Positions 1,004 through 22,952 of a stretch of 22,952 nucleotides of DNA are shown piece by piece; the first letter of the stretch is position 1; each line of letters starts with the position of its first letter. Origin of the DNA: a virus; IMG/VR virus record IMGVR_UViG_3300017771_000120, positions 1 through 22,952 of that record; one strand, 5' to 3'. The translations under genes were made by a program, and so were the position numbers. Below the pieces are notes generated by a model. That model made no database searches and had not been told where the DNA came from. It saw only the letters and a program-made list of their open reading frames with translations.

Positions 1004-3220
1004 ATGGTCACGGTAGATTCTACCGTACCTAAGAAGACCCTCACGCAAATCAATAAGCGTAGAGGTTGGGATTATGGCTACAATAAAGAATACGATATTG
1101 TAATCATTTCTAAAGATGGAACTCTCGGTGACGTGGTTGAGATATCAGGACTACGCATCGGGCTTCCTGTTGCACCTGAAACTGTATGGGCTAGAAGTAG
1201 CAAGAAGGCAGAGCAGTATTGGGAGCGTCAGGATTTACCACAGCAGCTATCAAAGATTAGTAGCATATTCCAATGGAATGAACATCCTAAAGAATTTAAG
1301 GAGATGTGGGTAGACTACATCGAGGGAGAGTTTGACGCTAGAGAGAAAGGCTTTTGGTTCATGAACAACGGGGAGCCTACATACGTTACAGGCGGGCACT
1401 ACATGTATATACAGTGGTCAAGTATTGACGTAGGTTATGCAGACTTCCGTGAGGCTAACAGAATATTCTACATATTTTGGGAGGCGTGTAAAGCAGATAA
1501 GCGTAGCTTCGGAATGAACTACTTAAAGATTCGTCGTTCAGGATTCTCGTTTATGTCTTCAGCGGAATGTATACACCAAGCTACATTAGCTAAGGATTCC
1601 CGTGTAGGTATATTATCTAAGACAGGTTCGGATGCTAAGAAGATGTTCACGGATAAAGTAGTTCCTATGAATATCAAACTACCATTCTTCTTCAAACCAA
1701 TACAGGACGGTATGGACAGACCAAAGACTGAGTTGGCTTACCGTATCCCTGCAGCTAAGATTACCAAGAACAATATGCACGAGTCTGAGGACGAGGAGCT
1801 GATGGGTCTTGATACAACAATCGATTGGAAGAATACAGACGATAACTCTTACGATGGTGAGAAGCTATTACTCATGATACACGATGAGAGTGGTAAGTGG
1901 GTTAAGCCTAATAACATTCTAAACAATTGGCGTGTAACTAAAACATGTCTACGTGTAGGTAGTAAGGTTATCGGTAAGTGTATGATGGGTTCTACCTGTA
2001 ACGCTTTAGCTAAGGGTGGTGATAACTTCAAGAAGATGTACGAGGACTCTAACTGTGCAGAGCGTAGTGCTAACGGACAGACTAAGAGTGGCTTATACTC
2101 TATCTTCATTCCTATGGAATGGAATATGGAGGGGTTCATTGATAGATACGGTAGACCTGTGTTCAGTAATCCTGAGAAGCCTATCATGGGTGTAGACGGA
2201 GAGATGATTGAGCAGGGAGCTGTAGACTATTGGGAGGCTGAGGTTGATGCATTGAAGGATGACTCTGATGCACTAAACGAATTCTACCGTCAGTTCCCAC
2301 GTACAGAGCAGCACGCATTCCGTGATGAGGCTAAGAACTCTATCTTCAACCTAACTAAGATATACCAACAGATTGACTTTAACGACCAAGCTATTGAGGC
2401 TCACTACGTTACTAGAGGCTCATTCTCTTGGAAGAACGGTATCAAGGATACAGAGGTTATCTTCTCTCCTAACAAGGCGGGTAGATTCATGGTGTCATGG
2501 ACACCTGAAAAAAGATTACAGAATAATGTAATCACAAAGAACGGTATCAAGTATCCGGGTAATGAACACATCGGTGCATTCGGATGTGACTCGTATGATA
2601 TCTCAGGTACTGTAGGAGGAAGAGGTTCTAATGGTGCATGTCATGGGCTTACTATGTTTAACATGGACAATGCTCCTAGTAATGAGTTCTTCTTGGAGTA
2701 CATAGCTAGACCACAGACAGCAGAGATATTCTTTGAAGATATACTTATGGCATGTATATTTTACGGTATGCCGATACTATGCGAGAACAACAAGCCTAGA
2801 TTACTTTATCATTTCAAGAACAGAGGCTACAGAGGGTTCAGCATGAATCGTCCCGATAAAGCCTATACGAAGCTCTCTAAGACAGAGAAAGAGCTTGGGG
2901 GTATACCTAACTCATCTGAGGATGTAAAGCAGGCTCACGCGGCCGCTATTGAGTCCTACATAGAAAAGCATGTTGGATATGATAACACAGGTACGTACAG
3001 AGCTAGTGATGATATAGGACAGATGCCGTTCATTAGAACATTAAATGATTGGAGCAAGTTCGACATATCTAATCGTACAAAGTACGATGCCTCTATATCT
3101 TCAGGGCTAGCTATCATGGCGTGTCAGAAGCACTTGTATCAGCCTGTCAAAAAGGAAAAGAAAATAAGTGTTACCTTTGCTAGATATAATAACTCAGGTT
3201 TAAGAAGCGAAATTTTCTAA
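1004..3220 (+). CDS. terL: Terminase large subunit (packaging ATPase and nuclease)
   Basis: The motor that cuts concatemeric phage DNA and pumps it through the portal into the procapsid. Numbered from the ATG at 1004 (738 residues), a degenerate Walker A lies at about 176-185 (KIRRSGFSFM, keeping R-SG-S but not the canonical GKS/T) and a clear Walker B at 288-295 (LLLMIHDE). The C-terminal RNase H-like nuclease has candidate metal-binding acids in FGCDSYD (about 529), ILCENN (about 594) and KYDASISSGLAIMA (about 695). An in-frame TTG at 971 would add 11 residues and overlap the upstream gene; ATG 1004 is preferred because it leaves a 7-base gap and does not need a rare start. The length is somewhat above the 450-650 residues common for this family. 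The portal ATG follows the stop directly. Confidence 0.9.
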   Translation: MVTVDSTVPKKTLTQINKRRGWDYGYNKEYDIVIISKDGTLGDVVEISGLRIGLPVAPETVWARSSKKAEQYWERQDLPQQLSKISSIFQWNEHPKEFKEMWVDYIEGEFDAREKGFWFMNNGEPTYVTGGHYMYIQWSSIDVGYADFREANRIFYIFWEACKADKRSFGMNYLKIRRSGFSFMSSAECIHQATLAKDSRVGILSKTGSDAKKMFTDKVVPMNIKLPFFFKPIQDGMDRPKTELAYRIPAAKITKNNMHESEDEELMGLDTTIDWKNTDDNSYDGEKLLLMIHDESGKWVKPNNILNNWRVTKTCLRVGSKVIGKCMMGSTCNALAKGGDNFKKMYEDSNCAERSANGQTKSGLYSIFIPMEWNMEGFIDRYGRPVFSNPEKPIMGVDGEMIEQGAVDYWEAEVDALKDDSDALNEFYRQFPRTEQHAFRDEAKNSIFNLTKIYQQIDFNDQAIEAHYVTRGSFSWKNGIKDTEVIFSPNKAGRFMVSWTPEKRLQNNVITKNGIKYPGNEHIGAFGCDSYDISGTVGGRGSNGACHGLTMFNMDNAPSNEFFLEYIARPQTAEIFFEDILMACIFYGMPILCENNKPRLLYHFKNRGYRGFSMNRPDKAYTKLSKTEKELGGIPNSSEDVKQAHAAAIESYIEKHVGYDNTGTYRASDDIGQMPFIRTLNDWSKFDISNRTKYDASISSGLAIMACQKHLYQPVKKEKKISVTFARYNNSGLRSEIF

Positions 3221-5675: not shown

Positions 5676-5683
5676 TAACTTTG
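5676..5683 (+). promoter_or_regulatory. Bacteroidota-type -7 promoter element before the scaffold and capsid genes
   Basis: TAACTTTG matches the TAnnTTTG consensus of the primary sigma factor of Bacteroidota. It lies 26 bases before the ATG at 5710 in the only gap between the portal and scaffold genes. No convincing -33 TTTG is visible. It would give the scaffold and capsid genes their own transcript with an A/T-rich leader. Confidence 0.6.
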
Positions 5684-8383: not shown

Positions 8384-8418
8384 AAAGGGCTGTCCTTCGG
8401 GATGGCCCTTTTACTTTT
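8384..8418 (+). terminator. Intrinsic terminator after the capsid gene
   Basis: A 12-bp stem (8384-8395 with 8400-8411, including two G-T wobble pairs) closed by a TTCG tetraloop and followed by a T-rich tract. The stable C-TTCG-G loop and the GGGC/GCCC core make it a convincing rho-independent terminator that isolates the capsid transcript. Confidence 0.85.
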
Positions 8419-8436
8419 CGATTAAATTCTCTGTAT

Positions 8437-8444
8437 TATATTTG
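8437..8444 (+). promoter_or_regulatory. Bacteroidota-type -7 promoter element
   Basis: TATATTTG matches TAnnTTTG, lies just behind the capsid terminator, and is followed by a 31-base A/T-rich leader before the ATG at 8476. A weak TTTTC lies near the expected -33 position. It should drive the single gene that follows. Confidence 0.65.
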
Positions 8445-8475
8445 CATAGTAATTAATTTTTTAAATCAAATTCAA

Positions 8476-9225
8476 ATGAGCAAGGACAGCAAGTTCACAG
8501 ATAAGCACTACAGGCTTACACGAGGTAAAGCACCTCTTTCTTTTACATTACCATCACGTAACTCTAAGCGTTATGCACTTCTTCACTTCGATGAGAAGCA
8601 AGGATACAACCGTGCGCTACGTTACGCTACTAACCAAAAGTCTCCTTACGAGGACGAGCAGGACGGTAATGCAGTACTAGCACCTATCGTATTTACTGAT
8701 GGTCTATTACACGTACCAAAACAAAACCAAGTACTACAACACTTCCTTTCTATTCACCCATTGAACGGCGTTAAGTTCGAAGAGGTAAACAACGAGAAGA
8801 CGGCTAAGGAAGAAGTAGCAAACTTAGATATAGAAGTAGACGCTCTTATTGAGGCACGTAGCCTTTCTACAGATATGCTAGTAACAGTAGCTCGTATCCT
8901 ATTCGACGCAGATGTTGATATGATGACTACATCGGAGCTTAAGCGTGACGTATTAGTATTCGCTAAGCGTGACCCACGTACATTCCTTTCAATCGTAACA
9001 GACCCTGAGCTATCGTTCAACGGTACGGTTGCTTCGATTATGGATTCAAAGCTATTAGTATTCCGTAACAATAAGAGAGAGGTATACTTCAACACTCCTT
9101 CTAATAAGAAGCGTATGATGACTATCCCATTCGGTGAAGACGAAATGACAGCTATCTCTGCTTACTTTAAAACAGACGAAGGTCTAGAACAGTTTGAGGG
9201 TTTAGAAAAGCTTCTAAACGCTTAA
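8476..9225 (+). CDS. Unidentified virion-associated protein encoded after the capsid gene
   Basis: A 249-residue soluble protein of unknown function. The first 90 residues hold the most distinctive segment, with ALRYATNQKSPYEDEQDG (about 42-59) and PIVFTDGLLHVPKQNQVLQHFL. From memory, very similar segments occur behind the capsid gene in other Bacteroidota phages. The middle (about 128-180) looks helical, with SELKRDVLVFAKRDPRTFL recalling small helix-extended-loop-helix modules. The end is mixed alpha/beta. The gene forms a transcription unit alone between a promoter and a terminator, next to the capsid gene, which suggests a stoichiometric structural role such as an auxiliary head or head-completion protein. 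There is no signal peptide or membrane segment. Confidence 0.6.
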   Translation: MSKDSKFTDKHYRLTRGKAPLSFTLPSRNSKRYALLHFDEKQGYNRALRYATNQKSPYEDEQDGNAVLAPIVFTDGLLHVPKQNQVLQHFLSIHPLNGVKFEEVNNEKTAKEEVANLDIEVDALIEARSLSTDMLVTVARILFDADVDMMTTSELKRDVLVFAKRDPRTFLSIVTDPELSFNGTVASIMDSKLLVFRNNKREVYFNTPSNKKRMMTIPFGEDEMTAISAYFKTDEGLEQFEGLEKLLNA

Positions 9226-9245
9226 GATTAGTAACTCATGATATG

Positions 9246-9278
9246 AAGGGGAGGGCTTAATTGCTCTCCCTTTTTTTT
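9246..9278 (+). terminator. Intrinsic terminator with T8 tract
   Basis: Stem GGGAGGGC (9249-9256) with GCTCTCCC (9263-9270), one G-T wobble, TTAATT loop, followed by eight T residues (9271-9278). The stem can extend into the T tract through A and G residues at 9246-9248. It ends the single-gene unit upstream. Confidence 0.85.
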
Positions 9279-9281
9279 GCG

Positions 9282-9289
9282 TATCTTTG
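9282..9289 (+). promoter_or_regulatory. Bacteroidota-type -7 element six bases before a start codon (5-base gap)
   Basis: TATCTTTG matches TAnnTTTG, with a TTG at 9261-9263 18 bases upstream as a possible -33 element inside the terminator stem-loop. Only TAGCT separates it from the ATG at 9295, so the transcript should start at or within a few bases of the start codon. The promoter also shows that an upstream in-frame TTG at 9277 is not the real start. Confidence 0.65.
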
Positions 9290-9294
9290 TAGCT

Positions 9295-10038
9295 ATGATT
9301 AACAACGTAAGGAAAACAGTACTTTCTATCCTCAACAAGAATAACTACGGTTATATCAGCCCTGACGACTTTAACATGTACGCTAGAGTTGCACAGCGTG
9401 AGATATTTGAGGATTACTTCCACAGGTTTAATAAGGAGAATAATAAGATTAATGCTCGTATGTCAGGTTCAGGACATGCGGACATACAGGCTAGAATCAA
9501 TGGAGAGGTTGATAAGTTCACCGTTGTAGAGAAGCCGTCTTTTATTACTGATAATCAGTTCGCTCTACCATCTCCTCTAACTAACGGGGATGATATGTTC
9601 AAGATTGTTTCTGTAACTACAGAACAGCAAGCAGGTGACGGTACTTACTTTTTTAAAGCAGAGGCTAGTAAGGTTTCTAATCTAGAGCTAAGAAGACTAG
9701 GTGCTTCTAATTTATTAGGTGCTGCATCTTACAATCCTATGTACACTGTCAATGGTGATACATTTACTATGGCGGGAGACAACTACGTAACGAACGAGGT
9801 TGTTCTCGAATACATCAGATACCCTAGAGACCCTAAGTGGACTTACTTAAACATTGGTGCAGGCGAGCCTATCTTTGACCAAACGGCAAACGACTACCAA
9901 GACTTTGAGATTGGGGAAGCAGAAGAGACTGAGTTAATCAACAAGATTTTGCAAATGGCAGGTATGTCTATTAGAGATATACAAGCAGTGCAAGCAGCAG
10001 GTCAAGAAGAAGTAGAACGTAAAACAGAACAGCAGTAA
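9295..10038 (+). CDS. Putative head-tail connector (ring/adaptor) protein 1
   Basis: A 247-residue protein starting MINNVRKTVLSILNKNNYG. The first 50 residues form helices with the order N-GY-SPDDFN-YA-VAQREIFEDYF, a pattern I associate with neck proteins of Bacteroidota podoviruses. A beta-rich middle and a helical, charged C-terminus (about 205-247) follow. Position between the head genes and the nozzle-type protein points to a connector ring beneath the portal, similar in role to P22 gp4 or T7 gp11, but no diagnostic motif is visible. The ATG at 9295 is chosen because the promoter lies immediately before it; the longer TTG start at 9277 would be upstream of transcription. The stop overlaps the next ATG by one base (TAATG). 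Confidence 0.6.
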   Translation: MINNVRKTVLSILNKNNYGYISPDDFNMYARVAQREIFEDYFHRFNKENNKINARMSGSGHADIQARINGEVDKFTVVEKPSFITDNQFALPSPLTNGDDMFKIVSVTTEQQAGDGTYFFKAEASKVSNLELRRLGASNLLGAASYNPMYTVNGDTFTMAGDNYVTNEVVLEYIRYPRDPKWTYLNIGAGEPIFDQTANDYQDFEIGEAEETELINKILQMAGMSIRDIQAVQAAGQEEVERKTEQQ

Positions 10039-10868
10039 TGCCTTTATTAACAGAGTTTAAATACTACCTAAACAGTGGGTCGCAGCCTCTTGACGAAAAT
10101 TGGGGAAGCTATCAGTACACACCGTTATCTGACATCATCAATAACTACATATTGGTATACATGGGGAATCAATCGTTAGTGAACAATGTTCCTAACCATG
10201 TTGTTTTATTCCATGCCAAGAGAGCTGTGCAAGAATTGCACTATGATGCTTTCAAAGAAGTTAAAGCTATGGAGCTTAAGGTAGAGGATTCATTGCGTTT
10301 TATTTTACCTAGAGACTATGTGAACTATGTTCGCATTTCTTTAGTTAAGGAAGGTATCTTATACCCACTACAGCAGAACACTCAGATTCTAGGAGCTACA
10401 TCTTACGAACAGGAGGCAGACGGCGAGCTAGTATTTGACAGCGGCTCATTAGTTCCAATCGAGTCTAGCTTAGACGCAGCGGATGGGGCTAGAGTATTCC
10501 AATTCGGTAGAGGTTCTGACGCTCAGTTCTCTAATCAGAATCCGGGATTCATCATCGACAAGGCTAGAGGAGTTATTAACTTTACTTCAGAAATGTCGGG
10601 TGAGAGCTGTATAGTAGAGTACATCACAGATGGTATGGAATCAGGAGACCCGTCTGAGATTTCCGTAAACAAACTATTTGAAGATTATATTTACGCTTAC
10701 ATTACTTACGCTATCCTTGATTCAAAGCTAGGTGTACAAGAGTACGTTATACGTAGAGCACTAAAGAAGAAGACAGCTCTTCTTCGTAATGCACGTATCC
10801 GTATTAGTGATATGCACCCATCTCGTCTACTTCAGACACTTCGTTCACAGGGAAACACGATTAAGTAA
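10038..10868 (+). CDS. Putative head-tail connector / tail tubular-type protein 2
   Basis: A 276-residue protein with an N-terminal helical bundle (DIINNYILVY and HAKRAVQELHYDAFKEVKAMELKV, about 37-83), a beta domain that begins LRFILPRDYVNYVRISLV (about 87-104), and a C-terminal helical segment ending in a basic stretch. An early helical bundle followed by a P-DYV-Y-R-S strand is typical of tail tubular protein A and P22 gp4-like adaptors of short-tailed phages. It overlaps both neighbours by one base through TAATG junctions, so the two connectors and the nozzle-type protein are probably made by coupled translation. The connector class is fairly secure from context; which ring it forms is inference. 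Confidence 0.6.
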   Translation: MPLLTEFKYYLNSGSQPLDENWGSYQYTPLSDIINNYILVYMGNQSLVNNVPNHVVLFHAKRAVQELHYDAFKEVKAMELKVEDSLRFILPRDYVNYVRISLVKEGILYPLQQNTQILGATSYEQEADGELVFDSGSLVPIESSLDAADGARVFQFGRGSDAQFSNQNPGFIIDKARGVINFTSEMSGESCIVEYITDGMESGDPSEISVNKLFEDYIYAYITYAILDSKLGVQEYVIRRALKKKTALLRNARIRISDMHPSRLLQTLRSQGNTIK

Positions 10869-13800
10869 TGGCTAACTTAAATAGAACATTTGTTAAGGGT
10901 AAAATGAATAAGGCGCTCAATGAGCGCTTAACTCCTAGTGGGGAATACCTAGATGCCACTAACATCAGAATAAACTCTTCAGAGGGCTCTGAAGGCGGTG
11001 TATTGGAAAATACAAAAGGTAATGATAAGCTTACCGATATAACTATCGATAATGTAGCCCCTACCGCTGCAGTGTGTATTGGTTCGTTTGAGGACGGTGC
11101 TAACGAAACTATCTATTGGTTCGTTACTGCAGATTACAATTCTGTGCACACATCAAACAAGGCGGACTTTATTCTGTCGTACAATATGCTTACTGACGTA
11201 ATGACATACCACGTCATCAGTATGCAAGACCCTAATGACGCAGACAAGACAGTATTAAACTTCAGTGAGCAGCACCGTATCAATGGTGTAAACCTTATTG
11301 AAGATATGTTATACTTTACGGATGGATACAATCCACCAAGAAAGATTAACGTAAAAAGAAATTACCCTAGACCATTATTCGCTAGCTCGTATGCAGATAC
11401 AGTTTCTGCTGATGAGTACAATGTAATCAAGCGTCCACCTATGAGTGCACCTACAGTTACAGGTATTGCATCACAGGATTCGAATGATGACTTTATGAAA
11501 GATAAGTTTATCTGTTTCGCATACAGATACAAGTATCAAGATGGTGAGTACTCTGCTACATCACAATTCTCTGAGCCTGTATTCAAGCCTGAGGATTTCG
11601 GACTAGAGTTCTCTACTATGCTTAACGCAGGTGTAAACAATACATACAACTCTGCAGCTGTACAGTTCGAGACAGGAGACCACACAGTAATTGGTATCGA
11701 CATCCTATACAAAGAGATGGGAGAGAACATCATTAAGATTGCTGACAAGATTGACAAGGCAACGGATGGTGTAGCTAACGATGCTACTAACGTTTACATC
11801 TTTGATGATAGTAAGGTTTTTACAATCCTACCTGACTCAGAGATTCTAAGATTATACGATAACGTACCTAAGACAGCTAAGGCTCAGACCATTATGAGTA
11901 ACCGTCTTGTTTACGGTAACTACACTGAAGGGTACGACCTTAAGGATTCTAACGATAATAACATAAGATTAGATTACCACACGTACCTAGGTTCTAACGC
12001 TATTAGCTTTGAGAGCGCTCCTACACATATTGCGGTAGGTGTTGATTACGGTAACTCACAGAATGATGATACTGCATTCTACGTAGACCTTACAGGCGTA
12101 GACCTTATAGAAGGACACGTTCTAGATTTTGACATCTCTTACGAAGGAGGTTCTGTGTTTGGTTCATCAGGTATATCTGTTGACTCTCCACAGCAGTTCT
12201 CTTTCTCTTACGCACTTCCTCAGACATTCAACAATGTTTCTGAGTTGTTTGCGTCTCAAGACTTCAAGAACAAGGTAGGTACACTAAGTACTATCAAGCC
12301 TGTATACCATGCTACTGACGATACGTCATGTGACGGTAATACATTTACAGATGCATTCTTCTGTAGCATACCTGCTACTAACGGAAGTAAGACTAAGTAC
12401 AACAGTTGGTCAGGTAGCTTTGGAACTCCTGTATTCTTAAATGCAGGTAGTGAAGCTATTGAAACTGCAGACGCAGGCATCTTCAACGGTAACACAGAAG
12501 TAGTTAGGATTGAGCTACCTACTATGTCTTACGCTTCTAACCCTGCTAGCCCTTCATCATTTAGTTTCCAATCATTTGATATTACTAATGTTGATGTTTC
12601 AGTATCTAGTAACGCAGGTGGTGAGAGCCTTAAGTCTAACCGTAGCTACGAGGTAGGTATTGTTTACATGGACGACTACGGACGTAGTACTACTGCATTA
12701 GTTAGTAGAGACAATAACGTAAGAATAGATATTAGCAGGTCAGACCTGCAGAACTCTATCAACGTAGAGATACCTACTACACAGAAAGCTCCGGCTTGGG
12801 CTAGTAAGTACAAGTTCGTTATTAAGGAAGACAAGTCTGACTACGACACTGTATACTCATCTACATACTACAAAGATTCTAACTCACGCTACAGCTACAT
12901 TATGCTAGAGGGTGAGAATGCAGCTAAGGTTGAAGAAGGTGATATCCTTATTGTAAAGACAGACCAAGGTGGTGCTGTGAATACTGTAAAGGAAATATCT
13001 ATACTAGAGAAGAAAGGTCAGGAAGCAGGATTCATTACAACAGTTAACGGTGACGGTCAGGAGATAACTCCTTACGGTGGAGTATACGCTAAGGTTGATG
13101 CATCAGAGATTTCATTACCTCAAGACGGTAGTGCAATAATAGATATACCATTTATCGGAGACAACGCTACATCAGGTGGTGATATTGAGGAGCAGTTCCC
13201 TAGAGCAGAGATAGGCCCGTTCTTAGACGAAGAGGGTAACGAGCTACCTATGCAAGCAGGAGCTAGAGCTAAGATGGAGTTTGAGTTCTCTAGACTAGGA
13301 AGCGGTGATGGTAACAATTCTTGCGAGAGAAGACTATACACGCTTATCTTAGATGTAACAGCTCAGACAGACTATGCTAACTTCAGAGAGTTTTGGATTG
13401 GTGAAGGTATCGGTTCATTACTTAATCAAGGGATACAAGACGTAGGTGCAGGAGGTGACGACATACAGAACTCTGACTTCTTCCCTGAAGCTATACTTAC
13501 ATTCGATGAGTTCCAAGGAACTGCAGGTACAACACTAGACCTAGAAGGAAGTACTAACACAAACAAGTTTGCATTCTTTACTAAGAGTAACGGATTCACT
13601 TACTTAGGTGTTACAGGAGCTAGAGCTTGTGGTATTTCTCAGTCTAAGCAATCTAAGATTAAAGGTTCTTTTGTTATTATCCCTAAGTCGGACACTATTG
13701 CATTTGAGACTAAGTCTGCAGACGCACTAGCAGATATATGGTACGAGAACGAACAGTCGTTTGATATTGCTAATGGACTACACTTAGGTAACGTTCAAAG

Positions 13801-15538
13801 CCAAACAGCTAACGACAGCGCTATCATCGCTACATCATTCTTCAACTGTTACTCATACGGTAACGGTGTTGAGTCTTACAAGATTAACGATTCTATTATC
13901 GGAAACAAACTTAAGTTCGGTAACAGAGTTACATCTACACAGGCGCAAGAGTACAAGGAGGCACACAGATTTGCAGACCTTACGTACAGTGGTGTATTCA
14001 ATGACGAGTCTAACATCAACAGACTAAACGAGTTCAACGGAGGACTACTTAACTTCAAGGCATGTGAAGATTTATACGGGCCTATCGAAGTTATCGACGC
14101 ACGTAGAACAGATATACTAGTATTGCAGGAGGATAAGATTTCTACAGTACTAGCAGGAAAGAACTTACTATCTATGTCTGACTCTGTACAGGGCGGAGCA
14201 TTAGCTTCTGTACCTGAGGTACTAGGTCAGCAGTTAGCTAGACATGAAGAGTTCGGTATTAGTAATAACCCTGAGAGCTACGCTAGCTACGGCGGTATCA
14301 AGTACTTCACAGATGTGAAGAGAGGTGCTGTGCTTAAGTTAGCAGGAGAACAGCTTGCACCTATTTCAAATGCAGGCATGGGAGATTTCTTTAGAGCTCA
14401 GTTCATTGAGGATTCTACTACTCAGAAGTTAGGTGGTTACGACCCTTACATGAAGGAGTACGTAATATCTAACATCGGAACAGAGCAGGCAGGTAGCTCT
14501 ACAAGCATTGAGTGTGGTAATACTCTATCCCTCAGCTTAGAGGCTGATGAGGTGTTTACTCTTACCGTATCATACGATAACCTTATTGGTGTAATAGACA
14601 ATACTGTTACCTCTACAGGAAACGCTACTATCGTTTCTAACTACGACGGAACACAACAGGCTACAGGTATAAGTACAGGTATCAACAGCTTAGCTCAGAT
14701 TAACAAGGATGATGCTGACATTAGCACTGTTACTTACACTATCACTGCAGGTGGTAGCGAGACTACTATTGTAATAGAGTCAGGATGTGTATCTACACCA
14801 TCGTTAGATGTTATTCAGGTTGTGATTACTGACAATGGTAATGACAAAAAGAGCACATTAGCTGAGTACTACGTTAACGGAACAGCAGAGGATTCTCCTC
14901 TAGTATCTCAATGGACAGAGTTCCTTGAAGATGAGAGTGTTGACAACGTAGTATCTAAGTATGTATCTTACACAGGTCAGGTCGGTTCAGGCTCTATACC
15001 TGATGCGGGTAATACTGTATACGTACAGGTTAGAGAAAACAACCTAACTACTTTCGAGTTTGATGCAGCTGCCAACAACAGACTGTTAGCTCTTAAGACT
15101 AGCACTAACCTTACGGATTCTGAAGCAGACATAGACACTATGCTTTCTTCAGCAACAGAGATAACTAACGTAACTCAGTTAGCTACAGCGCCTAACGGCG
15201 ATGAAGTTTGGCAGGGTAGCTTTACATTAAGCGACACACCAAGTGACGATAAGCTGTACTTGATTTACGATTTAAGAACATATAATAATGCTATGCTTTC
15301 TTTTGGTAGCACTCTTGAAGATTCTTGCTGCAATCAAATCTGCGGTTCAGGGTCAGGAAACTACTCAGTAATAAACGGAACTTCAGGAAGTATTTCCGTA
15401 ACATACACTCCTGTAGGTGGTTCTCCAACTACTGTAGTTCTAGGAGCTAATCAGAATGCTACGTACATCTCAGAAGTAGAACCTACTACATCAATACTAT
15501 CTAGCAGAATAACTGTAACACTAATAAGTTGTAATTAA
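10868..15538 (+). CDS. Giant nozzle/stabilization-type tail protein (P22 gp10 or T7 gp12-like)
   Basis: A 1556-residue, almost entirely beta-rich protein. The N-terminus KGKMNKALNERLTPSGEYLDATNIRI (about 10-35) carries the pattern of the tail stabilization/nozzle family: N-D/N-ER-P-GEY-DA-N, followed by a Gly-rich turn and repeated beta segments expected of a propeller. These proteins close the DNA channel at the tail tip and carry fibres; the equivalent in crAss-like phages is called the muzzle. T7 gp12 is about 790 residues, so this one is roughly doubled. From about 1210 to the end the protein changes: a Cys followed by Ig-like strands, a Cys-closed segment, and a C-terminal CCNQIC (about 1487) with a Gly/Ser-rich beta module ending LISCN. 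That part may be an adhesin-like extension. No internal stop or frameshift is seen. Confidence 0.7.
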   Translation: MANLNRTFVKGKMNKALNERLTPSGEYLDATNIRINSSEGSEGGVLENTKGNDKLTDITIDNVAPTAAVCIGSFEDGANETIYWFVTADYNSVHTSNKADFILSYNMLTDVMTYHVISMQDPNDADKTVLNFSEQHRINGVNLIEDMLYFTDGYNPPRKINVKRNYPRPLFASSYADTVSADEYNVIKRPPMSAPTVTGIASQDSNDDFMKDKFICFAYRYKYQDGEYSATSQFSEPVFKPEDFGLEFSTMLNAGVNNTYNSAAVQFETGDHTVIGIDILYKEMGENIIKIADKIDKATDGVANDATNVYIFDDSKVFTILPDSEILRLYDNVPKTAKAQTIMSNRLVYGNYTEGYDLKDSNDNNIRLDYHTYLGSNAISFESAPTHIAVGVDYGNSQNDDTAFYVDLTGVDLIEGHVLDFDISYEGGSVFGSSGISVDSPQQFSFSYALPQTFNNVSELFASQDFKNKVGTLSTIKPVYHATDDTSCDGNTFTDAFFCSIPATNGSKTKYNSWSGSFGTPVFLNAGSEAIETADAGIFNGNTEVVRIELPTMSYASNPASPSSFSFQSFDITNVDVSVSSNAGGESLKSNRSYEVGIVYMDDYGRSTTALVSRDNNVRIDISRSDLQNSINVEIPTTQKAPAWASKYKFVIKEDKSDYDTVYSSTYYKDSNSRYSYIMLEGENAAKVEEGDILIVKTDQGGAVNTVKEISILEKKGQEAGFITTVNGDGQEITPYGGVYAKVDASEISLPQDGSAIIDIPFIGDNATSGGDIEEQFPRAEIGPFLDEEGNELPMQAGARAKMEFEFSRLGSGDGNNSCERRLYTLILDVTAQTDYANFREFWIGEGIGSLLNQGIQDVGAGGDDIQNSDFFPEAILTFDEFQGTAGTTLDLEGSTNTNKFAFFTKSNGFTYLGVTGARACGISQSKQSKIKGSFVIIPKSDTIAFETKSADALADIWYENEQSFDIANGLHLGNVQSQTANDSAIIATSFFNCYSYGNGVESYKINDSIIGNKLKFGNRVTSTQAQEYKEAHRFADLTYSGVFNDESNINRLNEFNGGLLNFKACEDLYGPIEVIDARRTDILVLQEDKISTVLAGKNLLSMSDSVQGGALASVPEVLGQQLARHEEFGISNNPESYASYGGIKYFTDVKRGAVLKLAGEQLAPISNAGMGDFFRAQFIEDSTTQKLGGYDPYMKEYVISNIGTEQAGSSTSIECGNTLSLSLEADEVFTLTVSYDNLIGVIDNTVTSTGNATIVSNYDGTQQATGISTGINSLAQINKDDADISTVTYTITAGGSETTIVIESGCVSTPSLDVIQVVITDNGNDKKSTLAEYYVNGTAEDSPLVSQWTEFLEDESVDNVVSKYVSYTGQVGSGSIPDAGNTVYVQVRENNLTTFEFDAAANNRLLALKTSTNLTDSEADIDTMLSSATEITNVTQLATAPNGDEVWQGSFTLSDTPSDDKLYLIYDLRTYNNAMLSFGSTLEDSCCNQICGSGSGNYSVINGTSGSISVTYTPVGGSPTTVVLGANQNATYISEVEPTTSILSSRITVTLISCN

Positions 15539-15539
15539 T

Positions 15540-16469
15540 ATGGGAGTAATATCTACATACTACATAAACAGTAGCTCATACGCAGACGCTACAGGAGTAT
15601 TCACAGATGCGGCACTAACGACTGTCGCACCTGATGGATACTACGCAATGGACGGAATAACTAGGCAGCTAGTTAACGGAGTGCTAGGCTCTCCTGTTGA
15701 CTGTGTTGATTGCTCTCCAACGTGCGGAACTAACACCATCACTGTTATCAACGGTCAAGGTGTATACCAATTCACAGCGTTCGTAGGTGAAGACCCGGGA
15801 GCTGTTAGGATAGACTTCGACACAGATGTTGACTCTAACGCAGGATTTAGAATCATGCAGTTAGGTACTACAGTAAATAAGGTCTCTACGAAGAACTTAG
15901 GTTTACTGCAAGCTACAGGTGCTAACCCTGTATACATAGGCGACAGCTCTAGTTATGCAGGCTCATCACAGTTTTTAGATATATTCGAGCACAACGGATA
16001 CGAGTTCGAGGATTCAGGGGCTAACTCAATCAGAACACCAAACGCAGGTTCTAACTTCACTAACGCTATTCATCACGGTGGTGCTGTTATGACTTACGGT
16101 AAGATAAGCTCTACAGTTAATACGGTATTCCTAGAGGTAGAAGCACCTAGACCAAACACTACGTTCTCGTTTAGATTCGGATGTGCTACACTTCTTAACA
16201 ATTTCCTTAGAAGTACTCCTGTTGCTGCTACTCAAGCAGACGCATGTAACAAAACAACTATCGCTTCAGCTGCTTACGTTCAGTCAGTGAACGGTGACCC
16301 GGGAGTATACGGTAGTACTAGCGCTACACCGGGGCTATACGACTTCGTATTCTCAGACCCGTTTGCTCTTAACGCATTAGGAGACGGGCACTACAAGATA
16401 TCAGACACCAATACTATTGAAGTACAGGATGGTGTGATAATAAGCATAGACACATGCGGAGGCGCATAA
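15540..16469 (+). CDS. Beta-rich tail or appendage protein with duplicated terminal module
   Basis: A 309-residue protein, probably a tail or fibre component. It starts one base after the stop of the giant protein. Residues 16-55 (FTDAALTTVAPDGYY, then NGVLGSPVDC) and 266-306 (FSDPFALNALGDGHY, then DGVIISIDTC) are diverged copies of one module: a phenylalanine-x-D turn, L, DGxY, and a valine-rich strand ending in Cys. Between them is a beta-sandwich-like domain with GAVRIDFD and a late FGCATLL segment. Cysteines 55, 58 and 62 form a tight cluster (C-x2-C-x3-C). From memory, this module is common in tail proteins of Bacteroidota phages; its biochemical role is unknown to me. There is no signal peptide, as expected for a cytoplasmically assembled virion part. 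Confidence 0.55.
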   Translation: MGVISTYYINSSSYADATGVFTDAALTTVAPDGYYAMDGITRQLVNGVLGSPVDCVDCSPTCGTNTITVINGQGVYQFTAFVGEDPGAVRIDFDTDVDSNAGFRIMQLGTTVNKVSTKNLGLLQATGANPVYIGDSSSYAGSSQFLDIFEHNGYEFEDSGANSIRTPNAGSNFTNAIHHGGAVMTYGKISSTVNTVFLEVEAPRPNTTFSFRFGCATLLNNFLRSTPVAATQADACNKTTIASAAYVQSVNGDPGVYGSTSATPGLYDFVFSDPFALNALGDGHYKISDTNTIEVQDGVIISIDTCGGA

Positions 16470-16479
16470 AAGAAAAGAC

Positions 16480-17277
16480 ATGGCACAATTCACAGTAACA
16501 TACAGCGAATCAGTACAAGGATTCCCATCGTTCTACTCATTCATCCCTGAGGAGATGATTGGCATGAATAACAGGTTCTTCTCTTTTAAAGGCGGAGAGC
16601 TATACATCCACAACTCTGATGATGTGGATAGAAATAATTTCTACGGAGAGCAGTTCACTAGTAACGTGAAGCTTTCTGTAAATGACAAGGTAATGGATAA
16701 TAAGATATTCAAGACAGTAAACCTAGAGGGGACTCACCCTTGGGATGTACTTATTGAATCTGATATCCAAGACACAGGTAATATAGATAGCGAATGGTTC
16801 GTTAAGACTGAAGGAAGTTTTAGAGCATTCGTAAGAAATTCAGGAGGTGACCCTATCGGTGCTGCTGACCTTCCCTTACGTTCTATGAACGGCATCGGTA
16901 GGGCATCTTACTTTATTGTTGGAGCAACATCTGCTTCACCTGTATTCCCTCTGTCAGTACAGCTTGATAATGTATCTGTAGGAGACACTATCTACTACGC
17001 ACAGGATACAGACAACTACGCTACTACATACAAGTGGGGAACAGTAACAGCTTGGGTTCCTAACTACGGTACGCAGATAATGACTTTAATCATTGATAAC
17101 ACTGCAGGTAACCCTAACCCAACAGTTGTTGACCCAATGGTATTCGCAGTTAAGAATGCTGTAGCAGAATCACACGGTGTTTTAGGGCACTACGGAATCA
17201 TTGATATAACTAATGACGCAACGGAAGCTATTGAACTATTGGGAGTTGAGACCGAGGTTATGATTAGCAAAGCGTAA
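16480..17277 (+). CDS. Conserved tail-associated structural protein
   Basis: A 265-residue beta-rich protein. Its opening, YSESVQGFPSFYSFIPEEMI (residues 8-27), followed by GMNNRFFSFKGGELYIHN and NNFYG, is a pattern I recall from virion proteins of crAss-like and other Bacteroidota short-tailed phages; I cannot name the exact position in the particle. A middle segment (about 99-120) has SEWFVKTEGSFRAFVRN. Residues 150-215 look like a small barrel (VGDTIYYA, KWGTVTAWV, TQIMTLIID). It is the last gene of the unit that begins at 9295. A short purine stretch (AAGAAAAG) lies a few bases before the ATG. The function is structural by context; enzymatic activity is not suggested by any visible motif. 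Confidence 0.55.
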   Translation: MAQFTVTYSESVQGFPSFYSFIPEEMIGMNNRFFSFKGGELYIHNSDDVDRNNFYGEQFTSNVKLSVNDKVMDNKIFKTVNLEGTHPWDVLIESDIQDTGNIDSEWFVKTEGSFRAFVRNSGGDPIGAADLPLRSMNGIGRASYFIVGATSASPVFPLSVQLDNVSVGDTIYYAQDTDNYATTYKWGTVTAWVPNYGTQIMTLIIDNTAGNPNPTVVDPMVFAVKNAVAESHGVLGHYGIIDITNDATEAIELLGVETEVMISKA

Positions 17278-17284
17278 TTTGTTG

Positions 17285-17292
17285 TATATTTG
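17285..17292 (+). promoter_or_regulatory. Bacteroidota-type -7 element five bases before a start codon
   Basis: TATATTTG matches TAnnTTTG; TTTCA separates it from the ATG at 17298. No good -33 TTTG is visible at the right distance. No terminator lies between the upstream stop (17277) and this element, so it adds transcription to a unit that may also receive read-through. It predicts a leaderless or almost leaderless mRNA. Confidence 0.6.
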
Positions 17293-17297
17293 TTTCA

Positions 17298-17702
17298 ATG
17301 CTACACACACACAGCCTTAAGGAAACGGATTACGATAATCTACTCATCGGATGGTGGGAAGATTGGGGGTTCGTTCCACCAATGAAAGACTTTCTACCTG
17401 ATAATGCCACCGGCGGTCTTATGGTATACGACGGAGAAGTCCCTGTTTGCGCAGGATTCTTATACGAGACCAACTCTAGCACCGCTTGGATAGAGTGGAT
17501 AATATCAAATAAGCAGTATCGAGGTAGCCGTAGGAAGACGGCTATCTCTCTGCTGCTTGCTAACTTAGAAGAACTCGCTAGGGATAAAGGATTTAGCTTT
17601 ATCTTTGCGAATAATAATAACCGCCATCTAATTGGCCACTATGTAAACAATGGTTTCATGAAAGGTCAGACAGATAGCACAGAACTTATAAAGGTAATAT
17701 AA
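17298..17702 (+). CDS. GNAT-family N-acetyltransferase
   Basis: A 134-residue protein with the GNAT fold, which transfers an acetyl group from acetyl-CoA to an amine. Order of signs: beta strands around GGLMVYDGEVPVCAGFLYE (about 39-57), the strand AWIEWIIS, then the acetyl-CoA pyrophosphate-binding loop QYRGSRRKTAISLLL (73-87, matching Q/R-x-x-G-x-G/A with a modified second Gly) leading into the helix LANLEELARDKGF, then FIFANNNNRHLIGHYVNNGF (101-120), the usual last strand-helix with a Y-xx-GF ending. The substrate cannot be read from sequence. Lying between tail and ejection-protein genes, it may modify a virion protein or a host protein. It has its own promoter; the putative ejection-protein gene starts one base after its stop. 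Confidence 0.75.
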   Translation: MLHTHSLKETDYDNLLIGWWEDWGFVPPMKDFLPDNATGGLMVYDGEVPVCAGFLYETNSSTAWIEWIISNKQYRGSRRKTAISLLLANLEELARDKGFSFIFANNNNRHLIGHYVNNGFMKGQTDSTELIKVI

Positions 17703-17703
17703 C

Positions 17704-18498
17704 ATGGGATTAGGAACAGCAGCAACACTTAGCTTGGTATCAAGCGGTGCACAGGCAGGAATGTCTTTTGCGCAGGTACGTAAGCAACAGAAGCTTATTG
17801 ACGATGCGCAGACAGCAGCTACAGAAGCTCTAGCATCAGCTCAAAATAAATTGGATGTAAACTTCCAAGAGCAAACGTCTATTGCTAAGCAGGCTTACGA
17901 ATTAGAAAGAGAAGCAGGACTTGTTGCTTCAGCTCAAGCTACAGAAGCAGGGATGCAAAGCGAGAGAGGTGCAGCAGCTACAGCAGGTAGAGTACTTGCA
18001 GCTACTAACCAAGCGCAAGCAAATGTTTCTGCACGTATGGAACAAGACATCGTGGATAGAGATAAAAGAATCGCTGATGAAGAGTCTAGACTACGTGATG
18101 AAAAAGTAGAGATTGATAAGGCTATCGCAACAGGAGCACAGCAAGCTATTGCAGACGCACAGGCAGCTAAGACTTCTGCGATGATGACAGGTATGGAAGG
18201 AGTGATGAGTGGTGTTGGAACTGCATTTGAGAATAGCGCCCTATTCAAGCAAGACTTCGGTATGCAAAGAGCAGGCGCTTCAGGTGTTAGCTTTTCAGAG
18301 CAGGAGGCAACAGACTTCAATAAGCTAGGTGACTTCACTCTTGACGAAACAGGTTCATTGCCTGACTTCGGTTCTATGACAGAGAAAGACTTTAAGAAAT
18401 TCAAGAGAGGACTTAGCGATGAGCAGTGGGCTATGATTTCTAACAATCAGTCTTACATAGATAATATCTCAGGTTCAGCAGATTCAACAATTCAATAA
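17704..18498 (+). CDS. Putative internal virion (ejection) protein, T7 gp14-like type
   Basis: A 264-residue protein with a short Gly/Ala-rich N-terminus (GLGTAATLSLVSSGAQAG), then a long helical, Ala/Gln/Glu-rich region (about 20-160) predicted to be coiled coil, a small Gly/Met-rich segment (MMTGMEGVMSGVGTAF, about 160-175), and an acidic C-terminus ending in polar residues. T7 gp14 and its relatives, which form part of the channel extruded through the outer membrane at infection, show this N-terminal small-residue stretch plus long helices. No sequence signature proves it, so the role is inferred from composition and from its place before two more large virion proteins. Confidence 0.5.
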   Translation: MGLGTAATLSLVSSGAQAGMSFAQVRKQQKLIDDAQTAATEALASAQNKLDVNFQEQTSIAKQAYELEREAGLVASAQATEAGMQSERGAAATAGRVLAATNQAQANVSARMEQDIVDRDKRIADEESRLRDEKVEIDKAIATGAQQAIADAQAAKTSAMMTGMEGVMSGVGTAFENSALFKQDFGMQRAGASGVSFSEQEATDFNKLGDFTLDETGSLPDFGSMTEKDFKKFKRGLSDEQWAMISNNQSYIDNISGSADSTIQ

Positions 18499-18499
18499 A

Positions 18500-20425
18500 A
18501 TGACTTTTTACAAATACCAAAAACAAGAGGTCAGTGATATGCAAGCTGACCTAGGCAAACTAGGCACACAGTTCCGCAAGGAGGTAGATACCATTGCTAC
18601 ACAGCGTCAGGCACAGCGTGACGAGATAGAAGCTAACTATCAAGAGCTTAAGAACAAGATTGAGTCAGAGTCTCCATTAGGCTCTCACGCAGGCGCTAAC
18701 GAAGCTATGGCTAGGTTTAGTGCTGATGCAGCTCAGAAAGCATTAGAGATGAACCGTCGTATGAGAGCAGGAGACATTGAGCCTTCTGCTAATACAGCGT
18801 TCATGACTAACCTTAAGTCTTCTACAGAGAACATGTTCAAGGTTGGACAAGACTTCCAAAACAACTACAAAGAGGTTATGGATAGACACCTTGAAGGTGG
18901 AGCGGGTGCAGCTGAGGAATTGGCTTACCTAGAGGCAGCAGAATTATTCAATGCAAAGGGTGAACCTTTCGTTGGAGCAGACGGTCAGGTATTCCTTGCA
19001 GTGAGAGGAGGTGACGGTAAATTAGATACACAAAACCCAATCAGTTTAGCACAAGCGCAAGCAGCTGCTACACAGAGGGTTGACAAGTTTGATATGAGTG
19101 TTAGCTCTGCAAAGGTTGCAGACGCACTTGATAAGCCATGGGTTGAGGCTGTTCGTTCCGGTAAGGTAAAGACTGTTGAGGATGCGAGAAATAACCCTGC
19201 GTTCAATAGCGCACTAGAAAAGATGATTGATGCGGATTTATCTACACCATCTGCACTTACATCAATTCTACTAGACAACGCTTCGGGATACGAGTATGAT
19301 ATCACAGGTACGAAGACAGGTGATAACGTTATTCAAGCCAAGTACAATGAGAACTCAGGTCGTTTCGAGCCTGTTCTTACTGAGGCTCAAGAAGATGCAG
19401 CAAAGAATATCTATGCTGATACTATCCTAGCGCAAATTGGACGTAAAGAAACTGCGGTCGAAAAAACTCAAGAGTGGGAGCTTAACAGAGGAGAAGGTAA
19501 GAAAGAGTTTAGAGACAACATTTCTATGGCATCAAAGCTTTACAGAGGTTCTGCTGATGAAATCATGGCAGCTCGTGAATACTTCGTTGGTCTTAATTCT
19601 AGGATTAAGAACATTACTCGTACACTAGACGGTGTTATTGTTAACTACATTGGTGACGACGGACAGAGCGTTTCTAATACTGTCAGCTTCAAGACACCAT
19701 CGGGGTCATTCAAGACTGAGGCAGACTTCATCCGTTCTCTTACAGAGCTTACAGGTGACGGCGACGTGGATGATGCAATCAGAAGATTAAACATCAGAGG
19801 TAACAAGCCAACAGGTCACTCATCTACAGAAGGTGCTAGCAGAACTGTTACTAAGGATAGAGTAATCGATAAAGGCTACGGAGAGATAGAGTTAGATATT
19901 GCAGGTCAAGATAAGCTTGTAACTATCGACACAGCTGTAGATGATATCAACGTATCAGGTGAGGTGTTTGCAGGTAATACATCAGACAGACGTATTATCA
20001 CTGATGGTTTCACTGAGGTAGCTAACGAGGTATTCGGTAACCTAAGCGGTGACAAGACAAGCGGAATGGTTGTCGGAGCTGTTGATGATGATTACCGTCA
20101 GTTCGAAATCTACATACCATCTGTAATGACAGGCCCTCTATACCTACAGGTTGAAGAGAATGATGAGATGATGAAGACTAGATTGAAGAATGCTATGAAG
20201 CAAATCTATGATTCAGCTAACCTAGGAAAAACTATTACTCCTAATGACCTAGCAGAAGCTATGGGTCAAAACCCTAGTAGCCGTGCATTCCAATCTCGTA
20301 ATGAGATGCTATACAAGAGACACGGTCACTCTTGGAACGGTGGAGACGGAGAGTTCGGTAGCGGAGGACAAAGCCTAACTACTACGAAAGGAGGTGGTGC
20401 TTCATCTACTAGATTCAATAAATAA
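18500..20425 (+). CDS. Putative internal virion protein, unknown function
   Basis: A 641-residue soluble protein. Residues about 1-60 and 65-140 are charged helices (QADLGKLGTQFRKEVDT; then repeated Ala/Met/Arg helices). The middle alternates Ala-rich helices with beta segments, including GEPFVGADGQVFLAVRGGDG (about 155-174). The last 45 residues are Gly/Ser/Thr-rich and end in basic residues (GGGASSTRFNK). It starts two bases after the preceding gene and is followed by a terminator, so it shares the transcript that starts at 17298. Size, helical content and location between two other candidate ejection proteins suggest a T7 gp15-type counterpart. I do not recognise the family, and no catalytic motif is evident. 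Confidence 0.5.
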   Translation: MTFYKYQKQEVSDMQADLGKLGTQFRKEVDTIATQRQAQRDEIEANYQELKNKIESESPLGSHAGANEAMARFSADAAQKALEMNRRMRAGDIEPSANTAFMTNLKSSTENMFKVGQDFQNNYKEVMDRHLEGGAGAAEELAYLEAAELFNAKGEPFVGADGQVFLAVRGGDGKLDTQNPISLAQAQAAATQRVDKFDMSVSSAKVADALDKPWVEAVRSGKVKTVEDARNNPAFNSALEKMIDADLSTPSALTSILLDNASGYEYDITGTKTGDNVIQAKYNENSGRFEPVLTEAQEDAAKNIYADTILAQIGRKETAVEKTQEWELNRGEGKKEFRDNISMASKLYRGSADEIMAAREYFVGLNSRIKNITRTLDGVIVNYIGDDGQSVSNTVSFKTPSGSFKTEADFIRSLTELTGDGDVDDAIRRLNIRGNKPTGHSSTEGASRTVTKDRVIDKGYGEIELDIAGQDKLVTIDTAVDDINVSGEVFAGNTSDRRIITDGFTEVANEVFGNLSGDKTSGMVVGAVDDDYRQFEIYIPSVMTGPLYLQVEENDEMMKTRLKNAMKQIYDSANLGKTITPNDLAEAMGQNPSSRAFQSRNEMLYKRHGHSWNGGDGEFGSGGQSLTTTKGGGASSTRFNK

Positions 20426-20471
20426 TAAATAGCGGTTTCTAACCCATAGAATACTACTATATTACCTAAGT

Positions 20472-20507
20472 AAGGCCCTGCGAACTTCGCGGGGCTTTAT
20501 GTTTTTT
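20472..20507 (+). terminator. Intrinsic terminator before the last gene
   Basis: An 11-bp stem (20472-20482 with 20488-20498, two G-T wobbles) with an AACTT loop, then ATG and a run of six T residues (20502-20507). The preceding 46 bases (20426-20471) show nothing notable. The T run merges with the next promoter. Confidence 0.8.
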
Positions 20508-20511
20508 GTAT

Positions 20512-20519
20512 TATATTTG
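20512..20519 (+). promoter_or_regulatory. Bacteroidota-type -7 element four bases before a start codon
   Basis: TATATTTG matches TAnnTTTG and is separated from the ATG at 20524 by TTGC. It lies five bases behind the T run of the terminator. No clear -33 element is seen; the expected position falls in the terminator stem. The transcript should start at or next to the start codon. Confidence 0.65.
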
Positions 20520-20523
20520 TTGC

Positions 20524-22952
20524 ATGGTTAACGAAGAAGCAATTAAGCATTCGTACAGTCAGTTTCAAGGAACAGGATACGCTGACAGCTACGAGGACTT
20601 TAAGGAATTATTATCTACTAACAACGAGGCAGTTGAGCACGCATACAGCTTGTTCACTGAGACAGGATACGTTGACTCTATTGATGACTTCAAGACATTG
20701 ATGGGTCTTAGTGCTCCTATACAAGAAGAAGTAGTAGAAGAAGTAAAAAAAAAAGATTCTACGGAATTACCTTCGGAAGATGGTTCATTGGAGTCGGGAG
20801 ATTCTGAGCCGCAGATTACTGAGCCTGAGGTAACTCCAACACTAGCACCGTCTAAGCCTACGTTCACAGGAACTAATGGCGACAAGGTAGACCTATGGGT
20901 GCAAGATACAAGCAATCCTTCTAAGTGGGTAAACAAGTTCGATGAGGACGACGTTGCTACGTTCAGCAACTCTAACCTATCTTATTGGGGACAAGATGAT
21001 AAGTCTGAGAAGTATTGGGAGGACGAGGCAGGTGTACTATACAACATCAACGGTGAGGTAGTTAACTACTACAACGACCCACGTACAGACGACAAGTCAC
21101 CTAACCCTGACTCTGCACAGTTCCAAGCTAACGTAAAGCAACAAGAGGAGCGTGAGCTAAAGTCTCAGGCTGAAGCAACAGAGGCTGAAGATAAGGAGGA
21201 TAAGAAAGCAGCTGAGCGTTCAGAGCTTCTAACTTCTGATGAGTTCCAAGCAGACCTTTCTACTATTAACACACAGTTAATGGGTAAGGAAGATGAGGTT
21301 AAGCTTGATGAATTAAGAAAGACATTTGATAAGTACGGTATTGACGTTGCATTAGATAGCGGTAGTAGAACATCTACTATCGTATTATCTGCTGACGGTG
21401 TTGAAACTGTAATAGATACTAATTCATTATTTGGATTAGGTGATGACGAAGAAGCTACTAAGGCTAGACAATTCGTTGAAGACCATGCTAAAGTAGTTAA
21501 GCAGGTCGAGATAGAAAATTTTGAGGAACAGGCTTTAGCTGTAGAGCAGTCGCGTTCCGGTGGTCGATTAAACTCTGACGGTACTAAGTCTTCCGTTAAC
21601 CTTACTACTTATGAAGAGGATGGTGTATACAAGGTTGTTCCTACCTTGTTCCCAATCGACCCAAACATTCAGTCTACTAGACCGGACAGATGGTACGACC
21701 TAGCAGGCAATATGGAGGAGGCTAAGGAGCTCGCAGCAGAAAGAGGCGAGTTATATACCTTTGACTCGAAAGAAGAGGCTGAGCGCTTCGCAAATGGCGG
21801 ATGGGAGACTGCTGATACATCTGACGCTAGACGTAAGCAGGTGTATGAAGAAGCAGGTTTTGACTACAGCGCACACGCTGAAGAGGATGAGAAGTACAGA
21901 GCATCAAGAGACCTTATGCAACTTATTGGTGCACAACACCACGATAAGTTTGATGGTAGAGGTTTAGGTGTTTCACTAGACGAAGCCATCTCTTACAGAG
22001 GCGGACAGTTAGTACTTGGTGGACAAGTTCCTGAGCACGTATTAAAGCATTACCCACAGTTCTTTATTGAGGGCGGGGCTAGATGGGCTACAAATGTAGA
22101 AGACCAAATCTCAGGTCTTCAGCAGGACAATGATTTATTGATTGATAGAGTATTCGACAACCCTGAACTAGAAGCTGCTAGAGAAAAGGCAGATATGGTT
22201 ATGCAACAGGAGTTCGATAAGAAGAGAGGTAAGGCTATCTCTGTTAAGCAGAGCAGCATGAAGATGATTGATGATGCTAACAACCTTGCAATGGAATTGT
22301 TCGAAGGCAAGACTCTTGAGGAGCTTACGGACTACACGCCTGCTGATGAGGTGGAGGCGCAGAACATGCAGTTAGTTCAGGATATGGTTATCCAAGCTAA
22401 CATAGATTCTAACTTAGCATCTCGCCACTACGAAAACGCACACAGCTACTACGACAAGAAGTTCAATGAAGCTATGGCTACTGAGGTGACAGAAGGTTGG
22501 GAAGGAACTAAGGCTGCTTGGAGCAATGGATGGAATCAAGGTAAGGCTGCTGAGTCAGTACTACTATTGAGCATGAACCTTATGGCTGATGATACAGACC
22601 TAGAGGATGCAGCATACGATGTGGCGGAAAGATTAAGCTCTGACAGAAAAGCGGAGTCTGTACATATGGCTAGATACCAAGCTGCTGTAGGCAACAGAGA
22701 GATATTCAAGGCCATTGATACTCCTGAAGACTTCCTACAGTGGAGTGTTGACCTAGCGTCTAGCTCACTTTCTATGATGATGCCGTACGGTAGTTGGATT
22801 GTTGGAGGTTCTGTAACTACAGGAGCTGCTGTAGGTTCAGCTATACCGGGATACGGAACATTAGCAGGTGGTGCTAAAGGACTTGAGCTAGGTATGGGTG
22901 CTACTTCATTCGCTATGGAGTACACTAACGCAGTACTAGATGTAGCAGGAGA
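20524..22952 (+). CDS. Large internal virion (ejection) protein, 5' part (truncated by window end)
   Basis: An uninterrupted frame of 809 codons runs off the right edge. The N-terminus has two copies of a 30-residue repeat (EAIKHSYSQFQGTGYADS, then EAVEHAYSLFTETGYVDS; about 4-30 and 34-60). An acidic, Pro-containing linker follows (about 64-120), then a Trp-rich segment and charged helices. Residues about 340-428 (GGRLNSDGTKSS, VVPTLFP, EEAKELAAERGELYTF, EEAERFANGGW) resemble a small accessory domain I recall from phage transglycosylases and internal virion proteins. The final visible part (about 740-809) is hydrophobic and Gly/Ala-rich, suggesting membrane interaction. Position, size and domains suggest a T7 gp16-type protein ejected into the host; the catalytic domain, if any, lies beyond the window. 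It has its own promoter behind a terminator. Confidence 0.6.
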   Translation, partial: MVNEEAIKHSYSQFQGTGYADSYEDFKELLSTNNEAVEHAYSLFTETGYVDSIDDFKTLMGLSAPIQEEVVEEVKKKDSTELPSEDGSLESGDSEPQITEPEVTPTLAPSKPTFTGTNGDKVDLWVQDTSNPSKWVNKFDEDDVATFSNSNLSYWGQDDKSEKYWEDEAGVLYNINGEVVNYYNDPRTDDKSPNPDSAQFQANVKQQEERELKSQAEATEAEDKEDKKAAERSELLTSDEFQADLSTINTQLMGKEDEVKLDELRKTFDKYGIDVALDSGSRTSTIVLSADGVETVIDTNSLFGLGDDEEATKARQFVEDHAKVVKQVEIENFEEQALAVEQSRSGGRLNSDGTKSSVNLTTYEEDGVYKVVPTLFPIDPNIQSTRPDRWYDLAGNMEEAKELAAERGELYTFDSKEEAERFANGGWETADTSDARRKQVYEEAGFDYSAHAEEDEKYRASRDLMQLIGAQHHDKFDGRGLGVSLDEAISYRGGQLVLGGQVPEHVLKHYPQFFIEGGARWATNVEDQISGLQQDNDLLIDRVFDNPELEAAREKADMVMQQEFDKKRGKAISVKQSSMKMIDDANNLAMELFEGKTLEELTDYTPADEVEAQNMQLVQDMVIQANIDSNLASRHYENAHSYYDKKFNEAMATEVTEGWEGTKAAWSNGWNQGKAAESVLLLSMNLMADDTDLEDAAYDVAERLSSDRKAESVHMARYQAAVGNREIFKAIDTPEDFLQWSVDLASSSLSMMMPYGSWIVGGSVTTGAAVGSAIPGYGTLAGGAKGLELGMGATSFAMEYTNAVLDVAG
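20533..20703 (+). repeat. Tandem 30-codon repeat at the start of the large virion protein
   Basis: Two copies (20533-20613 and 20623-20703) encode EAxxHxYSxFxxTGYxDSxxDFKxLx, with identical residues at about half the positions. The period is exactly 30 codons (Ala6 aligns with Ala36). The nucleotide sequences have diverged much more than the protein, indicating an old duplication under protein-level selection. Confidence 0.8.

Follow-up and report, generated by a model that had tools for sequence, protein, structure and literature searches.

Three promoter-like boxes in the late region of a marine podovirus stand only 4 or 5 bases ahead of an ATG, and the question they raise is whether the corresponding mRNAs begin at the start codon itself. 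The window, that is, the whole stretch of DNA that was analysed, is a viral fragment of 22,952 bases. Its genes code for a GroES-like protein, the terminase and portal, a scaffold, the major capsid protein, tail proteins, a muzzle-like protein and an acetyltransferase, and it ends within the gene of a large ejection-type protein. The order TerL, portal, capsid and tail is common to Podoviruses of Flavobacteriia (relatives of Elemovirus, Pervagoviridae and Pachyviridae), as judged from PHROG matches and from gene order in MW202828, elemoE and phi38:1. The labels scaffold and ejection come from gene order and from the original prediction; the scaffold protein matches a PHROG without function and the ejection protein matches none. 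The closest named phages are MW202828 (67% capsid identity), Maribacter phage Panino, the Flavobacterium elemo phages and Cellulophaga phages such as phi38:1, so that the host is very likely a flavobacterium.

Relatives of the capsid gene (L259-L265) lie on contigs binned in Bacteroidetes MAGs and on others whose MAGs bear the names Pelagibacter, Woesearchaeota, Aliivibrio and Pseudomonadales, and these assignments outside Bacteroidetes look like mis-binning. The protein encoded at 16480-17277 matches the C-terminal domain of the crAss muzzle (PF25729, E 1e-15), which points to a crAss-like tail tip in this group of podoviruses. The promoters, terminators and genes considered here are as follows.

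5676..5683, plus strand: -7 box TAACTTTG of the scaffold/capsid operon, 26 nt to the ATG at 5710, leadered
8437..8444, plus strand: -7 box TATATTTG of the gene for a 249-aa protein, 31 nt to the ATG at 8476, leadered
9245..9274, plus strand: intrinsic terminator, 12 bp stem and T-run, immediately ahead of the tail-gene promoter
9282..9289, plus strand: -7 box TATCTTTG of the tail gene, followed by TAGCT and the ATG at 9295 (5 nt)
9295..10038, plus strand: virion structural (tail) protein gene with predicted leaderless AUG (PHROG 14543)
17285..17292, plus strand: -7 box TATATTTG, 7 nt past the preceding stop codon, followed by TTTCA and the ATG at 17298 (5 nt)
17298..17702, plus strand: GNAT-like acetyltransferase gene with predicted leaderless AUG (PF00583, PHROG 17252)
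20470..20500, plus strand: terminator stem of 14 bp, then TGTTTTTTG, called from its fold
20512..20519, plus strand: -7 box TATATTTG, followed by TTGC and the ATG at 20524 (4 nt)
20524..22950 (runs off the window), plus strand: large ejection-type protein gene with predicted leaderless AUG, called from its position before the end of the late region

Promoter boxes and their position

Direct reading confirmed the original prediction that the boxes at 9282, 17285 and 20512 are followed by 5, 5 and 4 bases before ATG, and all five boxes listed match TAHHTTTG, a refined consensus taken from PMC6847099. Transcription in F. johnsoniae starts 4-5 nt past the -7 box, and its -33 motif is weak, with none clear (PMC6847099); the box of F. 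psychrophilum occupies positions -12 to -5 (PMC9723704). Because the published start lies 4-5 nt after the box, the 5' end predicted for the three mRNAs coincides with the AUG. The leaders of 26 and 31 bases proposed at 5676 and 8437 turned out to be distances from box to ATG, and the leaders predicted there are of about 21-22 nt and 26-27 nt, respectively. An exact TTG 17-22 nt upstream of the box was found only at the 9282 promoter (TTG at 9261), which is also the only site that matches a strict -33/-7 pattern, and a generic scan for sigma-70 promoters was uninformative (38 found vs 41 expected). The motif TAnnTTTG is not enriched across the window (22 matches vs 16.7 expected), therefore the signal resides in the position of the box: three boxes were seen at a spacing of 3-7 nt from a start codon, whereas 0.03 would be expected by chance from the plus-strand density of TAHHTTTG over 16 gene starts and 5 offsets.

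We consider it highly probable that the three sites are late promoters yielding leaderless mRNAs and that their spacing is held to two states. The primary sigma factor of the host, of the sigma-ABfr type with a TAHHTTTG -7 box, would read all three promoters, and RNA would start 4-5 nt past the box, at or beside the A of the AUG, leaving the tail, acetyltransferase and ejection mRNAs leaderless. Ribosomes would then recognise a 5'-terminal AUG, not the A-rich, Kozak-like leader found on the scaffold/capsid mRNA of the same phage. The terminators upstream of 9282 and 20512 would block read-through, which probably leaves the leaderless mRNA as the chief message of these two genes; 17285 has no terminator, and the acetyltransferase is thus probably translated from both a leaderless mRNA and the upstream polycistronic mRNA. 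With leaders of about 4-9 nt being avoided, presumably through selection against them, spacing would be limited to 3-7 nt or to some 14 nt and more. The sequences, their conservation, the bimodal spacing and the start codons come from the present data, and the distance from box to transcription start comes from the literature on Flavobacterium, the host of this contig being judged from its phage relatives; from these we infer where the mRNAs actually begin, that initiation is leaderless and why intermediate spacings are rare.

Conservation of the junctions in relatives

The tail-gene junction was surveyed in 80 viral contigs and 3 phage records, and nearly all of them have a terminator, then the box and a start that reads ATGAT(T/A). 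In the window, positions 9236-9281 fold with -19.7 kcal/mol (z -4.05), and in nearly all relatives a comparable terminator stem stands ahead of the tail-gene box. Of 90 distinct upstream sequences, 23 have the box at 4-5 nt, one at 7 nt, 54 at 12-19 nt and five farther away, while seven are boxless; these tail-gene figures exclude the per-family count given below, in which family 0 has spacings of 27-41 nt (merged or differently called ORFs). The T-rich tail of the terminator is kept before the box in the 76 distinct boxed upstream sequences, where the fourth base, C or A, is the only box position that varies freely, the invariance of TA, TTT and G being imposed by the search pattern itself. 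By their predicted 5' ends, 65 of 103 distinct tail orthologs are leadered (12-32 nt) and 32 leaderless, and on the tree of these 103 distinct proteins the two states require about 10 changes, of which well supported branches impose at least 4 to 5. In an elemo phage of Flavobacterium sp. BAL314 the tail box stands 19 nt from the ATG and the acetyltransferase box 4 nt, and in phi38:1, which infects Cellulophaga baltica, the tail box stands at 21 nt. Nearly all orthologs, leaderless and leadered, begin with MIN or MID from residue 1, and the next in-frame start of the tail gene lies 27 codons downstream.

The gene after 17285 had been assigned to the tail and ejection operons, but it actually codes for a GNAT-like acetyltransferase, with a weak match to PF00583 (E 6e-4) that falls slightly short of the curated cut-off. 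A box lies 3-8 nt ahead of its ATG in 47 of 49 distinct relatives, which makes it the most consistently leaderless gene of the set as far as prediction goes. Its promoter occupies the roughly 20 nt that separate the preceding stop codon from the start codon, and fold analysis detected no terminator ahead of it; since the box follows right behind that stop, the upstream mRNA can serve this gene as well. Spacings of 6-7 nt are common for this gene among relatives and, if the transcription start is fixed, would imply leaders of 1-3 nt, which counts against strict leaderlessness. No alternative start was found between the stop 11 codons upstream and codon 28. As for the gene at 16480, its orthologs in one group of relatives (e.g. 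L066 and L071) carry TAAATTTG 6-7 nt ahead of the ATG, a leaderless-type promoter that is conserved in that group and absent in the window.

At the ejection-gene junction, positions 20470-20511 fold with -22.3 kcal/mol (z -5.57). A search for related loci with the 20524 protein gave no match, and relatives of this junction were reached via the neighbouring genes. In the nearest of them (L255, 64% in the preceding gene), the stem is followed by TATATTTG and by an ATG at 4 nt, and the two proteins have the N-terminus M(V/I)NE in common. Boxes were also found in L102 and L108 (TAAATTTG) and in L118, L120 and L126 (TATTTTTG), all at 4 nt. The box ahead of the ejection gene is missing in most relatives and, where present, always lies at 4 nt. 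Alignment of the junctions in related phages, which had been proposed as a check, therefore gave a conserved spacing for the acetyltransferase gene and for boxed ejection genes, but two spacings for the tail gene.

In 63 of 69 relatives the scaffold-gene box stands 14-27 nt from the ATG; none is closer than 14 nt, and the gene is leadered in every relative with a detected box. Its presence beside leaderless-type genes agrees with the claim that two modes coexist in the same phage. The gene at 8476 is boxless in 84 of 93 distinct relatives; in most relatives the region of window positions 8384-8475 holds a terminator and an AT-rich leader with no recognisable promoter. Because of this absence of the box, the gene is, on sequence comparison, poor support for a conserved two-mode design. 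The suggested division, with leaderless tail and ejection genes and leadered head genes, held for the scaffold gene but not for the tail gene, most of whose orthologs are leadered as counted above, and it did not survive for the ejection and 249-aa genes, whose promoters at 20512 and 8437 are absent in most relatives. A further box, TACCTTTG at 3172-3179, falls inside the terminase gene at its 3' end, 41 nt ahead of the portal ATG, and 52 of 62 relatives have a box 40-45 nt from that ATG; this could be an internal promoter, or it could merely reflect a protein motif conserved at that place.

Two spacing states and rival explanations

Over 1343 distinct phage gene starts, boxes were found 87 times at 3-7 nt, 6 times at 8-13 nt and 72 times at 14-18 nt, against a background of about 2 per 5 positions, although the leaderless proportion is inflated in this set, as the loci were fetched through these very genes. 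Related control motifs were flat across spacings. One count per spacing per gene family gave 23, 6 and 21 for the same three ranges (P 6e-5 vs uniform), and gene starts called on about 1.6 Mb from four flavobacterial genomes gave 22, 9 and 36 (P 1e-5). Counts of box plus ATG made in 60 host genomes with no gene calling were too noisy and were dropped. Judging from box positions, the host family uses both modes, with predicted leaderless starts the fewer, and the mode is thus no special trait of this phage. ATG starts peak clearly at 3-7 nt, while GTG and CTG starts show practically no such peak and TTG starts occur a few times at 4-5 nt. Ahead of leadered phage starts, A occupies positions -10 to -13, with 93% A at -12 in a set dominated by few gene families; this region raises translation in F. 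johnsoniae, and leaderless starts have no space for it.

The prediction of leaderless mRNAs is well supported by the conservation of box, spacing and start codon in relatives, together with the published distance from box to transcription start. We give rather little credence to the possibility that the boxes are promoters but that mainly read-through polycistronic mRNA with internal initiation serves these genes, the leaderless transcript being minor. Most of the 17298 mRNA could come from the upstream operon by read-through, since the acetyltransferase promoter has no terminator ahead of it, and the ejection-protein gene is promoterless in most relatives; however, strong terminators stand ahead of 9282 and 20512, as well as of the tail promoter in almost all relatives, and a minor transcript would hardly need a conserved box and spacing. 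Slightly less probable still is that the tight spacing is a by-product of genome compaction and of short intergenic regions, with leader length being neutral. Intergenic regions are short in this phage, the acetyltransferase one especially, but compaction predicts a smooth spread, whereas phages have next to no boxes at 8-13 nt and hosts have a deficit there, and two discrete states were attained about ten times for the tail gene.

It is very improbable that the true start codons lie elsewhere and that the mRNAs have normal leaders. An in-frame TTG occurs 6 codons upstream of both 9295 and 20524, within the promoter region, but a TTG upstream of the transcription start is not on the mRNA; the downstream candidates are 27, 28 and 42 codons away, and tail orthologs begin with the same ATG in either mode. 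The least credible reading is that of chance matches to an AT-rich motif, for the window-wide count of TAnnTTTG, which does not exceed expectation, is set against a position-specific enrichment over background and control motifs and against the recurrence of the same box, behind a conserved T-rich terminator tail, in the 76 distinct tail upstream sequences. Both misplaced starts and chance are nearly excluded, and late promoters with leaderless mRNAs remain our preferred explanation. A bolder idea, which we regard as unlikely, is that spacing could be a two-state evolutionary switch that moves late genes between the 5'-terminal AUG and the A-rich leader routes; if so, leaderless messages might stay translatable, or differ in timing, under limiting host initiation during infection.

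Comparison with known systems

Translation in Bacteroidetes proceeds without Shine-Dalgarno signals. Leaderless mRNAs are already known there as a minority (about 4-5.5%), with 5.5% in F. psychrophilum (PMC9723704) and about 3.7% of 5' UTRs shorter than 10 nt in B. thetaiotaomicron (PMC7366714), and an early survey described leaderless signals in 1 of 37 Bacteroidetes/Chlorobi genomes, in 2.4% of its genes (Zheng 2011, PMC3160421). What appears to be new is the conservation of predicted leaderless starts in flavophage late genes and the two-state spacing; a search of the open-access literature, which is a weak indication, found no report of either. In the literature searched, leaderless initiation in Bacteroidetes had been counted before, but not as a conserved feature of particular genes. 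This phage group offers natural matched pairs, with the same tail gene, terminator and box at two spacings (4-5 or 14-17 nt) and about ten switches between them, so that both what short leaders cost and how leaderless initiation proceeds in Bacteroidetes can be tested directly. Annotation of start sites and promoters in flavophages is also improved.

As in Deinococcus-Thermus (PMC12340547), Actinobacteria and other groups (Zheng 2011, PMC3160421), the box adjoins the start codon and the mRNA would begin at the AUG, but the leaderless genes of those groups are abundant and carry a -10 element of the sigma-70 type, whereas here the box is the Bacteroidetes TAHHTTTG, ahead of phage late genes. 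The Crassvirales phage crAss001, which infects Bacteroides, also carries TAnnTTTG boxes ahead of late genes, but these stand about 19-35 nt from the ATG of annotated starts, with no convincing leaderless case among them. The closest likeness is to the mapped Bacteroidetes hosts, which have the same type of sigma factor and box, the Flavobacterium distance from box to transcription start and no Shine-Dalgarno signal. In those hosts leaderless mRNAs belong to a minor share of genes, whereas here the predicted leaderless mode is found in the same phage genes across distant relatives, alternating with the leadered mode.
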